From: Pseudobdellovibrionaceae bacterium
Lineage (GTDB): Bacteria > Bdellovibrionota > Bdellovibrionia > Bdellovibrionales > Bdellovibrionaceae
Assembly: GCA_022843825.1 (NCBI GenBank)
Contig: JALHMX010000001.1
Span: 1 to 64,000 of the forward strand
Direction: 5' to 3'
Length of the DNA: 64,000 nt
The notes beneath the pieces were generated by a model, which saw only the letters and a program-made list of their open reading frames with translations, made no database searches and had not been told where the DNA came from. The position numbers were made by a program, and so were the translations under genes. Below, in pieces: positions 30,473-33,802 of the stretch; within the stretch, counting starts at the first letter, position 1; each line of letters starts with the position of its first letter.

Positions 30473-31642
30473 ATGTCTTCTGTAAAAGATAAAATGAAAT
30501 TTGCAACGCGCGCTATTCATGCCGGGCAAAAGCCGGACCCGTCGACAGGCGCGATCATGACTCCGGTTTATTTGACCTCAACTTATGTTCAAGAATCGCC
30601 AGGGGTTCATAAGGGCTGGGAGTACTCTCGCACCCATAATCCCACGCGCCGGGCTTATGAAGATTGTATTGCTAACTTAGAGTCTGCAAAATACGGTTTT
30701 GCTTTTGCCTCTGGTTGTGCGGCGGCGACGACGATTGTTCATATGCTGAAACAAGGCGATCATGTCGTCGCGATGGACGATATGTACGGCGGTACGTTTC
30801 GCCTTTTTGATAAAGTGATTAGACATCAAGGTATCGAATTTACTTATACAGATTTAACAGACACTAATAACTTAGAAAAATCCATTAAGCCTAATACTAA
30901 ATTGTTGTGGTTAGAAACTCCGACGAATCCCACACTTAAACTGGCAGACATTAAAACGCTTTCAAGCCTAGCCAAAAAGAAAAATATTATCGTGGTGGTG
31001 GATAACACTTTTATGTCTCCGTATTTTCAACGTCCTATCGAATTAGGTGCCGACATTGTCGTTCATTCTGCAACGAAATACATTGGCGGGCATAGTGATA
31101 TGGTGGGCGGGGTGGCCGTCACTAATGAGGCACAGATCGCAGAAAAATTGGCCTTCCTGAGTAACTCTATGGGTGGAATTCAAGGACCGTTTGATTCTTT
31201 TATGGCGTTAAGAAGTTTAAAAACATTACCTATTCGCATGAAGGCGCACGCCGAAAACGCGATGAAGTTGGCCGAATTTTTAGAATCACATTCACAAGTA
31301 GAAAAAGTTCTTTATCCAGGCTTGAAATCTCATCCACAGCATGAACTTGCGAAAGCGCAGATGTCAGGTTTCGGCGGCATGATCACTTTCTTCATTAAAG
31401 GCGGATTCAACGCAGCGAAAAAGTTTTTGGAAAGTGTTCAAGTCTTTGCATTGGCAGAATCCCTGGGTGGAGTAGAATCCTTAGTCGAGCATCCGGCGAT
31501 TATGACCCATGCTTCAGTTCCGCCAGAGCAACGTAAAATCCTAGGCATTGATGATTCTTTAATCAGATTATCAGTAGGTATTGAAGATTATGATGATTTG
31601 TTAACGGATCTAAAACAGGCTTTCGCTAAAATTCAGTCCTAA
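30473..31642 (+). CDS. Cystathionine gamma-lyase/synthase (PLP, Cys/Met family)
   Basis: A 389-residue fold-type I PLP enzyme. YSRTHNPTR (51-59) and ASGCAAATTI mark the family; PLP lysine K202 lies in HSATKYIGGHSD. PGLKSHPQHELAKAQMSGFGGM and SLGGVESLVEHPA near the end are typical of gamma-lyase/gamma-synthase. Next to a CBS-like gene it most likely cleaves cystathionine to cysteine (reverse transsulfuration); gamma-synthase activity cannot be excluded from sequence alone. Confidence 0.88.
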   Translation: MSSVKDKMKFATRAIHAGQKPDPSTGAIMTPVYLTSTYVQESPGVHKGWEYSRTHNPTRRAYEDCIANLESAKYGFAFASGCAAATTIVHMLKQGDHVVAMDDMYGGTFRLFDKVIRHQGIEFTYTDLTDTNNLEKSIKPNTKLLWLETPTNPTLKLADIKTLSSLAKKKNIIVVVDNTFMSPYFQRPIELGADIVVHSATKYIGGHSDMVGGVAVTNEAQIAEKLAFLSNSMGGIQGPFDSFMALRSLKTLPIRMKAHAENAMKLAEFLESHSQVEKVLYPGLKSHPQHELAKAQMSGFGGMITFFIKGGFNAAKKFLESVQVFALAESLGGVESLVEHPAIMTHASVPPEQRKILGIDDSLIRLSVGIEDYDDLLTDLKQAFAKIQS

Positions 31643-31656
31643 AGGACTGATTTGTT
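31633..31656 (+). terminator. Possible terminator hairpin over the CGL stop codon
   Basis: TCAGTCC (31633-31639) / GGACTGA (31644-31650), loop TAAA that includes the stop codon, followed by a short T-rich stretch. The T run is weak. Confidence 0.45.
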
Positions 31657-31714
31657 GACTTAAATTCGCCTAATCGTTAATTTTCTAGTTCACTTTGAAC
31701 TCAATTCAAAAATT

Positions 31715-31790
<76 letters not shown>

Positions 31791-31857
31791 TTTCGAAACC
31801 CGTATAGTTCTGGTATTTTCTATTTAATAACAAGTCCAATTAAGCTAATCTTTTTAA

Positions 31858-32328
31858 ATGAGAAAAATATTTCGTATCCTTTTGTCTTTAATTTTTATAG
31901 CTGTACTTCAAATATTTTATAGCTGGGGTGATCGTTCTTTTGAAATGAGTGGTAATTACATATCAGAGACAGCCTTTGCGCTTATTTCTGGAACAGAAGT
32001 TAGTGGGACTATAGACAAAATTTCAGTTAACACTGAAATCTCGGTAACAAGTAACTATTTAGCTACGGTTTCGTATGTTACATTGGAAAATCAAAAAATT
32101 ACGCGTGATTTTCGTTATTCAGAAGACAAAATTCCTTTAAATACGCAAGTACATGTTTTGTACGATCCTAAAAATCCATTAAAAGCTGCTTTAAAAGAAG
32201 ATGCGAATTATTTTAAGTACACATGCTATGGAGCTTTAGCCTTTATAGGTTCATTTACGATACTCTTATTTTTGATTGCATTTTTAATATATTGGTTAAG
32301 AACACCTAAACCCAATACAACTGGTTAG
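31858..32328 (+). CDS. DUF3592-like membrane protein
   Basis: A 156-residue protein lying between the two tRNA-Phe end repeats. One N-terminal helix (5-24) and one C-terminal helix (about 122-145, GALAFIGSFTILLFLIAFLI) flank a beta-rich domain with IDKISVNTEISV and QVHVLYDPKNPLKAALKE; the last is the V-x-YDP-x-NP-x-x-A pattern of DUF3592. Function unknown. As the only gene between the repeats it is the likely cargo of a small or shrunken integrated element. Confidence 0.7.
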   Translation: MRKIFRILLSLIFIAVLQIFYSWGDRSFEMSGNYISETAFALISGTEVSGTIDKISVNTEISVTSNYLATVSYVTLENQKITRDFRYSEDKIPLNTQVHVLYDPKNPLKAALKEDANYFKYTCYGALAFIGSFTILLFLIAFLIYWLRTPKPNTTG

Positions 32329-32335
32329 AAGCGCA

Positions 32336-32355
32336 TCCGTCTCTGGCCACCATTT
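32336..32355. repeat. att-like direct repeat, copy 2
   Basis: Exact copy of TCCGTCTCTGGCCACCATTT from the tRNA-Phe 3' end, 8 bp after the DUF3592 gene. No upstream tRNA body accompanies it, so it is an att remnant and not a second tRNA. Confidence 0.85.
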
Positions 32356-32384
32356 TTTTGTTTAAAATATTGATATTACTAATG

Positions 32385-32417
32385 ATCTTTGAGGTGACAA
32401 ATTGGAACCTCAAAGAT
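32385..32417. promoter_or_regulatory. Palindrome upstream of the ORF6N gene (candidate operator)
   Basis: Perfect 11-bp arms ATCTTTGAGGT (32385-32395) and ACCTCAAAGAT (32407-32417), spacer 11 bp, 43 bp before the start codon. The half-site TTGAGGT recurs as a palindrome inside the coding region. Suggests autoregulation; not proven. Confidence 0.6.
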
Positions 32418-32460
32418 TTGACTTACGAGTAGGCCGTCAAATTGCTCACGCAAGTTAGTT

Positions 32461-32955
32461 ATGACAAAAATATCCAAAATTGAAATAGAGAAAAGCATTT
32501 TTATAGTTCGTAAACAGAAGGTCATGTTGGATTCTGATTTAGCTCGAATCTATGGGGTTACAACAAAAAATTTGAATAAGTCAGTAAAGCGAAATTCGGA
32601 TCGTTTTCCATTGGATTTTATGTTCCAGCTTACAACTCTCGAAGCTGACAACTTGAGGTTCCAAACTGGAACCTCAAGTTCATATGGTGGCCGCCGTTAT
32701 TCGCCCTATGTTTTCACAGAGCACGGAGCTTTAATGTTAGCAGGCGTATTAAATAGTGATATTGCGATTGAAGCCAGTATTCAAGTTGTACGATCTTTCA
32801 TTCAATTGCGAGAGTTTGTAATCTCTCACAAAGAATTATCGCGAAAGCTTTCAGATCTTGAAAAAAAATACGATTCGCAATTCAAAGTCGTGTTTGAGGC
32901 CATTGAACAGCTTATGACTATTCCCGAAGTGCCGCCTAAGAAGATTGGGATTTAA
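32461..32955 (+). CDS. ORF6N-domain DNA-binding protein (phage/mobile type)
   Basis: A 164-residue protein. The N-terminal ORF6N domain (about 5-95) is clear: FIVRKQKVMLDSDLARIYGVTTKNLNKSVKRN (as segments VRKQKVMLDSDLARIYGV and TTKNLNKSVKRN), then FPLDFMFQLT and YSPYVFTEHGALMLAGVL. A C-terminal coiled-coil part follows (LSRKLSDLEKKYDSQF). ORF6N/KilA-N proteins are common in phages and islands; their targets are largely unknown. Palindromes sharing one half-site lie upstream (32385-32417) and within the codons for NLRFQTGTSS (32650-32680). Confidence 0.88.
   Translation: MTKISKIEIEKSIFIVRKQKVMLDSDLARIYGVTTKNLNKSVKRNSDRFPLDFMFQLTTLEADNLRFQTGTSSSYGGRRYSPYVFTEHGALMLAGVLNSDIAIEASIQVVRSFIQLREFVISHKELSRKLSDLEKKYDSQFKVVFEAIEQLMTIPEVPPKKIGI
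32650..32680. repeat. Perfect 13-bp inverted repeat inside the ORF6N gene
   Basis: AACTTGAGGTTCC (32650-32662) / GGAACCTCAAGTT (32668-32680), loop AAACT. It encodes N-L-R-F-Q-T-G-T-S-S of the ORF6N domain. The half-site TTGAGGT matches the upstream palindrome; GGAACCTCAA also occurs there at 32404-32413. Confidence 0.85.
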
Positions 32956-32998
32956 TTTTTAAGAAGACTATTTTGTTATGTTGCGATAGCCTTTTTCA

Positions 32999-33586
32999 AT
33001 GAAGTCCAAATTACCTAAAGATTATGTGATTAAAGAAGTGCCTACCGAAGAATTTGGCGACCTATGGATTAAGCAAGCCCAAAAAATTTTTAGAGACAAT
33101 CTTGATTATTATGGCAGCGAGCCGATTGACACGAAATCTGAGCAGAAAAAATTTAAAAAACTGACAAAACAGTTTAATGGATCTGAGCATTATAGAGTTA
33201 ACCTCGGGTTGTACTATAAAAATAAATTTGTAGGGTGGTCATGGGGATATCAGCAGGCACCAACGACTTTTTATATGTGCAATTCCGCAATCTTTCCCCC
33301 GCACCGGCGCAAAGGTTTATACACGTATTTAATGAACGAAATTGTCAATAAAGCTTCGGCTAAAGGATTTCAAAGCATTTATAGCCGCCATATTATAACC
33401 AATAACGATATTATTATCGCCAAACTTAAAGCCGGTTTTAAAATAACTAGCATTGAATTATCCGAAAGATTTGGAACCATGATTCATTTAACTTATTTCC
33501 CCCAAAAAATTCGCAATGAGATATTAGATTTCCGTTCAGGCTTTAAGTACCCTGATAAAAAAATGAAGAAGCTTTTTAAGTTGTAA
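32999..33586 (+). CDS. GNAT-family N-acetyltransferase
   Basis: A 195-residue acetyltransferase with the acetyl-CoA loop in motif A: CNSAIFPPHRRKGLYTYLMNEIV (HRRKGLY is the R/Q-x-x-G-x pattern), then KGFQSIYSRHIITNNDIIIAKLKAGFK as the motif B region, where N and K-G-F are conserved. Substrate unknown. It is downstream of the ORF6N gene, separated by 43 bp, with its own start, and may or may not belong to the island. Confidence 0.8.
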   Translation: MKSKLPKDYVIKEVPTEEFGDLWIKQAQKIFRDNLDYYGSEPIDTKSEQKKFKKLTKQFNGSEHYRVNLGLYYKNKFVGWSWGYQQAPTTFYMCNSAIFPPHRRKGLYTYLMNEIVNKASAKGFQSIYSRHIITNNDIIIAKLKAGFKITSIELSERFGTMIHLTYFPQKIRNEILDFRSGFKYPDKKMKKLFKL

Positions 33587-33802
33587 TTTTGGGGCTTCCA
33601 AACATCTCATTATGATATATTTTTTATGAAATTCGTCTCGTTTTTAGCGTCGAACTTTTGGGCGATGTCTAAAGTCTTTTAATCGAAAAATCAAACATTC
33701 TGTATTTATATAAAACACTTTTCTTATAGCGCAGATCATAGCGTCTATTCGCTCGATGACGTCACGTCATTCTGGTCTTTTTATTGAACTAATAATACCT
33801 AT

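Follow-up and report, generated by a model that had tools for sequence, protein, structure and literature searches.

In the 64,000-nt stretch of Pseudobdellovibrionaceae contig JALHMX010000001.1 analyzed here (the window), a gene encoding a 164-residue protein of the ORF6N family (positions 32461–32955, forward strand) carries a long palindrome within its own codons. Our results show that this arrangement, first noticed in the window, is general to the ORF6N family across many phyla and plasmids, that the palindrome is conserved at the DNA level, and that it coevolves with the recognition residues of the encoded protein. Given that residues of the recognition helix predict the palindrome bases of their own gene, ORF6N proteins very probably bind the embedded site, a conclusion drawn from sequence covariation.

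The in-gene palindrome of the window (32650–32680, forward strand; core 32653–32677, centre 32665), a predicted binding site identified by its symmetry and its conservation in ORF6N genes, has the form AACTTGAGGTTCCA-aac-TGGAACCTCAAGTT, with perfect 14-bp arms that span codons 64–73 plus one base. The 13-bp perfect inverted repeat with loop AAACT that an earlier, sequence-only reading had described in the ORF6N codons is this element minus its innermost pair. The same reading had reported an upstream palindrome with the half-site TTGAGGT, which is present as an inverted repeat of the form ATCTTTGAGGT-11 nt-ACCTCAAAGAT (32385–32417, forward strand; core 32389–32413, centre 32401, 60 bp 5' of the ATG) and occupies the same place in the relative G003. 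Its likeness to the in-gene site is wider than had been proposed, with 22 of 25 bases in common (TTGAGGTnnCAAAnTGGAACCTCAA): its right half, TTGAGGTTCCAA, is identical to the in-gene half-site, and its left half has diverged at positions −4 and −5. A scan of the whole window for further matches to the shared 25-base pattern returned none, with shuffled sequences giving 0.00, and matches to sigma-70 promoters around the upstream site were no more frequent than in shuffles. A second ORF6N gene in the same genome, broken by a TAA codon, has a perfect palindrome with 15-bp arms at identical codons, which differs from that of the window by a compensating pair change (AGG/ACC to AGA/ATC) that also alters a residue.

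The family was represented by 261 distinct reading frames from relatives of the window genome, genomes sampled one per species, plasmid and phage records, and samples of the Verrucomicrobiota and Bacteroidota, with genome contigs searched by means of six peptide probes, one of them taken from the palindrome codons. Within 150 nt 5' of the FTExG motif, the best arrangement of 12 arm pairs contained at least 9 matched pairs in 256 of the 261 genes and at least 10 in 247, whereas a control stretch of equal length downstream in the same genes reached at least 10 in none (0/261); the profile used for gene finding covers the loop, and members without it may be under-sampled in these counts. A family lacking the palindrome at these codons, the outcome that would have spoken against the sequence-only reading, was thus not what this comparison revealed. 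Nor does the encoded peptide impose the symmetry, as synonymous recoding predicts a mean of 5.5 of the 12 pairs and 11.2 were observed, with 252 of 253 genes individually significant (p<0.05).

Several features place the constraint on the DNA itself. At half-site position ±4, the two bases are Watson-Crick partners in 97% of cases, compared to 33% expected under independence, and a similar pattern is seen at positions 5, 7, 8 and 9–13, with positions 2, 3 and 6 almost invariant and position 1 uncoupled. A subfamily with the peptide EVVxNCDHL in place of LRSQxxTS retains the same core, GGTCRCAAATTGYGACC, in a reading frame shifted by one base, so that an amino-acid requirement cannot explain the palindrome; the paired changes in the arms and the recurrence of the core in a second frame together identify DNA as the conserved entity. 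In addition, among genes with Ser67, the choice of the serine codon follows the identity of residue 40, with TCG in 76 of 77 genes encoding E40 and TCA in 72 of 74 encoding Q40 (p 1e-39). This synonymous preference supports the earlier suggestion that the residues encoded by the palindrome are themselves constrained by DNA.

Among the KilA-N, Bro-N and ORF6N groups of phage DNA-binding domains, the window protein belongs to ORF6N, matching PF10543 with 112.9 bits (gathering score 27.8; E 8.7e-33). Its AlphaFold2 model (pLDDT 83.7) shows an N-terminal part resembling a winged helix-turn-helix (HTH) DNA-binding domain, with helices 24–31, 35–44 and 59–69 and strands 54–56 and 83–85, followed by long C-terminal helices that probably serve dimerization. 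Residues 64–73, which are encoded by the palindrome, form the end of helix 59–69 and a low-confidence loop leading up to strand 83–85 (pLDDT <50 at residues 72–75), and may thus represent the flexible tip of a putative wing. A comparison of the model with the Protein Data Bank yielded no homology outside DHD/MerR/APSES-like folds, the best VIA fold matches being SnoN/Dach/SKI (Z 5.6–6.9), RacA-DNA (6.0), NmlR-DNA (5.7) and MBP1 (4.9), all below Z 8.

In 232 genes, every protein column was compared with each base of the palindrome by mutual information. Besides the palindrome-coded residues themselves, the strongest columns fall into helix 35–44, which follows the first HTH helix and whose initial residues 36–41 (K N L N K S) are encoded at positions 32566–32583 of the forward strand. 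Residue 40, and then residue 37, couple with bases −4 and −5, and residue 36 couples with base −7 (0.87 nats for residue 40 and base −4; median column z 0.5). Directly after the palindrome-coded loop, in the segment of residues 77–80 (G R R Y; 32689–32700, forward strand), residue 80 covaries with base −8, and residues 77 and 79 with base −10. The resulting tables come close to a code: at −4, Q40 goes with A, E40 with G, and R40 or K40 with C, and the combinations R37/E40, V or A37/Q40, A37/R40 and N37/K40 are associated with TCGCAA, TCACAA, TGCCAA and TTCCAA, respectively. Base −7 is G with K36, A with G, F or I36, and mixed with R36. The window protein (K36, N37, K40, Y80) and its in-gene half-site TTGAGGTTCCAA agree with this code, from which a variant carrying R37/E40 would be predicted to prefer TTGAGGTCGCAA over TTGAGGTTCCAA half-sites.

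This correspondence extends to 94% of the in-gene half-sites and withstands controls for relatedness. When 57 disjoint pairs of similar proteins with different bases at −4 were compared, residue 40 had changed as predicted in 49 of them, while it differed in only 8 of 57 pairs with the same base. A code table learned from the first gene set predicted base −4 in 95% of the held-out half-sites from Verrucomicrobiota and 100% of those from Bacteroidota, compared to 34% and 52% for a baseline using the commonest base. In previously unused viral contigs from IMG/VR, the palindrome was found in 30 of 36 genes, and base −4 fitted in all 68 of 68 half-sites. Because the code also holds in the genes using the second reading frame (20/20) and governs a synonymous choice at Ser67, the coupling is not a protein-protein effect. 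The in-gene site therefore corresponds to the specificity of the protein that its gene encodes, according to the residue-base code, the held-out predictions and the synonymous-codon test alike, and the proposal that it lies in the codons of the very domain that reads it gains support from the predictive power of residues 36, 37 and 40, in held-out phyla and in both frames. Arm similarity between the sites of one gene, taken as the sole statistic, had suggested that the protein does not read the arms; for the in-gene site, this view was overturned by the residue-base analysis.

We consider it probable that ORF6N proteins are dimeric winged-HTH proteins whose cognate operator is part of the gene that encodes them, formed by the codons of the loop at the tip of the putative wing. 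Each subunit would read a 12-bp half-site, TTGARRTNNCAA, with residue 36 assigned to position −7, residues 37 and 40 to positions −5 and −4, and residues 77–80 to positions −8 and −10, such that the window protein would read TTCCAA through N37/K40. The homodimer, which may be held together by its C-terminal helices, would bind directly, and the bound protein would block transcription within the gene; where an upstream site exists, as in the window, promoter occlusion could add to the repression. Judged from the position of the site, autorepression is the most likely consequence of binding, with a role resembling that of an initiator at its origin as the main rival. Reader and operator, only ~70–90 bp apart, would be able to diversify together, and regulation would be self-contained, as a transferred copy would carry its own operator. 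The sequence-only reading had already envisaged such a self-contained operator in the domain of its own reader, and the joint change of reader and site across phyla argues in its favor. Intragenic operators are familiar from single regulators, such as araO2 at araC and the PurR sites at purR, which likewise have regulator sites in or at their own genes but represent single cases rather than a family-wide site with a residue-base code.

Certain replication initiators provide a closer parallel and, at the same time, the strongest alternative, namely that the protein binds the embedded site but uses it as an origin or similar replicon site. The binding sites of lambda O lie inside its own gene (PMC7466680), the winged-HTH RepA_N initiator Rep of pSK41 recognizes Rep boxes within rep in a region coding for a linker (PMC5703833), and RepC of repABC plasmids binds inside its own coding sequence (PMC2783167). 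ORF6N genes, too, occur on plasmids and viral contigs, and some of them possess a second in-gene site (16/256) or small clusters of sites. However, lambda O-type initiators rely on 4–6 nearly identical iterons for replication initiation, whereas ORF6N genes usually contain, in place of an iteron array, one long palindrome, which varies among members together with the recognition helix and has no known replication role. Unlike pSK41 Rep and RepC, which belong to plasmid replicons, most of the sampled ORF6N genes are short, solitary and chromosomal and lack a replication domain, and their site coincides with codons of the putative wing, within the DNA-binding domain. Moreover, a 4.1-kb Segatella plasmid has a separate annotated replication initiator beside its ORF6N gene. 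An origin-like use of the site finds no positive support and appears improbable.

The remaining alternatives, which invoke mobile repeats, hairpins or mutation, fail because none of them accounts for the code. It is very unlikely that the palindromes represent mobile elements inserting near or into ORF6N genes irrespective of protein specificity. Clusters of palindromes with differing arms beside some genes, the tandem loop copies in 16 genes and the incomplete match of about half of the upstream sites would be in line with this idea, but the in-gene copies follow the code, and nearly every site in 30 genomes rich in ORF6N falls within or next to such a gene or a remnant of one. Mobility is disfavored for the in-gene site but may still apply to the additional flanking copies. 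Less probable still is selection for a hairpin in mRNA or single-stranded DNA, which would agree with the symmetric covariation of the arms, the uncoupled central positions ±1 and the ability of the arms to differ between the sites of one locus, but leaves it unexplained why residues of the recognition helix set the bases. In addition, G-U pairs are absent at ±4 (0/209) although G-C and A-T are both common, and sites outside genes show 22 G-T versus 16 A-C pairs, such that G-U is not favored. An excess of G-U outside genes, seen by eye, was not upheld in this main count; a smaller, core-only set had more G-T than A-C, and neither result was relied on. Least probable of all is a symmetry that arose by mutation, through quasipalindrome template switching, or that merely accompanies the conserved peptide LRSQxxTS, since, even though perfect palindromes survive in several broken genes and as orphans, the synonymous null is rejected, a second reading frame exists, the bases are coupled to helix residues, and mismatches shared and retained by orthologs such as L061, L085, L102, L106 and L097 show that correction is not fast, ruling out rapid quasipalindrome repair.

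Genome-wide pattern scans, including the 30 ORF6N-rich genomes, traced almost all the sites to ORF6N genes, their close vicinity or remnants of such genes, which rules out a dispersed REP-like repeat or a genome-wide regulon. Of the 256 genes, 35 have family-like sites in the 250 nt before the gene and 9 have them downstream, with distances to the start being approximate, as a rule was used to assign start codons in the large set. When the invariant core is considered by itself, its density in the 250-nt segments preceding ORF6N genes exceeds that in the remainder of these loci by a factor of ~30. Upstream sites fit the code of the adjacent gene at −4 with a frequency of 0.55, compared to 0.38 for swapped pairs (sd 0.06), and a fully cognate upstream site at this position occurs in 18 of the 35 genes. 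The matching upstream site postulated by the sequence-only reading is therefore real in the window but optional in the family. The counterpart of the window's upstream site in G003 is a perfect palindrome that agrees with the code of the G003 protein (K36, I37, Q40, TCACAA), and the ORF6N gene of G009 has lost the in-gene site and kept a perfect cognate upstream site.

A number of observations weigh against the proposed explanation. The site is absent from a few genes (L023 and some SQxxIPSKKxLGG types), promoter copies are limited to a minority of genes, about half of the upstream sites misfit at −4, with 17 of 46 lacking a cognate half, and the fold matches are modest (Z <7). Furthermore, perfect intergenic palindromes of this family without an adjoining ORF6N gene are found in relatives at L122 (G004:C6:122909; arms of up to ~20 bp), L125 (G009:C1:502074) and L128 (G078:C8:841), and two of the hosts, G004 and G078, have zero ORF6N matches genome-wide.

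The surroundings of individual genes show further features. The ORF6N unit follows a GNAT gene in G003 (L162, G003:C16) and precedes it in the window (31600–33600); given this swapped order and the shared sequence starting from ATTACTAATGATC beside the upstream palindrome, the unit has apparently undergone a local relocation. Just 5' of it in the window, the 3' end of a tRNA-Phe gene (31715–31790) is repeated at ~32338–32357 (TCCGTCTCTGGCCACCATTT), flanking a DUF3592-like gene (31858–32328), an arrangement that likely represents the remnant of a tRNA-integrated element. Clusters of about four palindromes adjoin ORF6N genes in L348 (1161–1290, with regular 34-bp spacing and 7-nt spacers), L054 (1330–1485), L050 (1340–1447) and L301 (1995–2145, reverse strand); their arms differ between copies, each copy is nearly symmetric, and many misfit the code of the adjacent protein. 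In Butyrivibrio L172, an unusual half-site, ATCGAGATGCCAA, is present both in the gene and 29 bp 5' of its start. L169, L171 and L172 encode fusions in which the ORF6N domain precedes a C-terminal region that bears an HDRF/Y-type motif and resembles phospholipase-D-like proteins. In L324, a gene resembling IS200-like/REP-associated tyrosine transposases (129–1175) adjoins a decayed ORF6N fragment that has kept its palindrome.

Our literature search, whose coverage stopped short of subscription journals, retrieved no description of an ORF6N palindrome, embedded site or binding site. It is tempting, if somewhat doubtful, to regard ORF6N genes as reader-plus-operator cassettes that are inherited and diversify as a unit, with new specificities escaping resident repression in a manner reminiscent of incompatibility groups. 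Paralogs within one genome showed no avoidance of equal specificity (0.28 within versus 0.27 between genomes), which counts against the escape part of this idea; most of the genomes were metagenome-assembled, so that the absence of paralogs is uncertain.

If true, the cassette reading would make ORF6N the first example, across a whole family, of a protein loop whose sequence is dictated by the DNA that the same protein recognizes. The arrangement described here illustrates how codons and a protein loop are constrained by the very DNA that they form. For almost all members of this large family, a binding site can be predicted from sequence alone, together with a near-deterministic residue-to-base code, and, with reader and site united in the same gene, the arrangement offers a natural laboratory for the coevolution of protein-DNA specificity. 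Moreover, it suggests how mobile regulators may stay regulated wherever they land.
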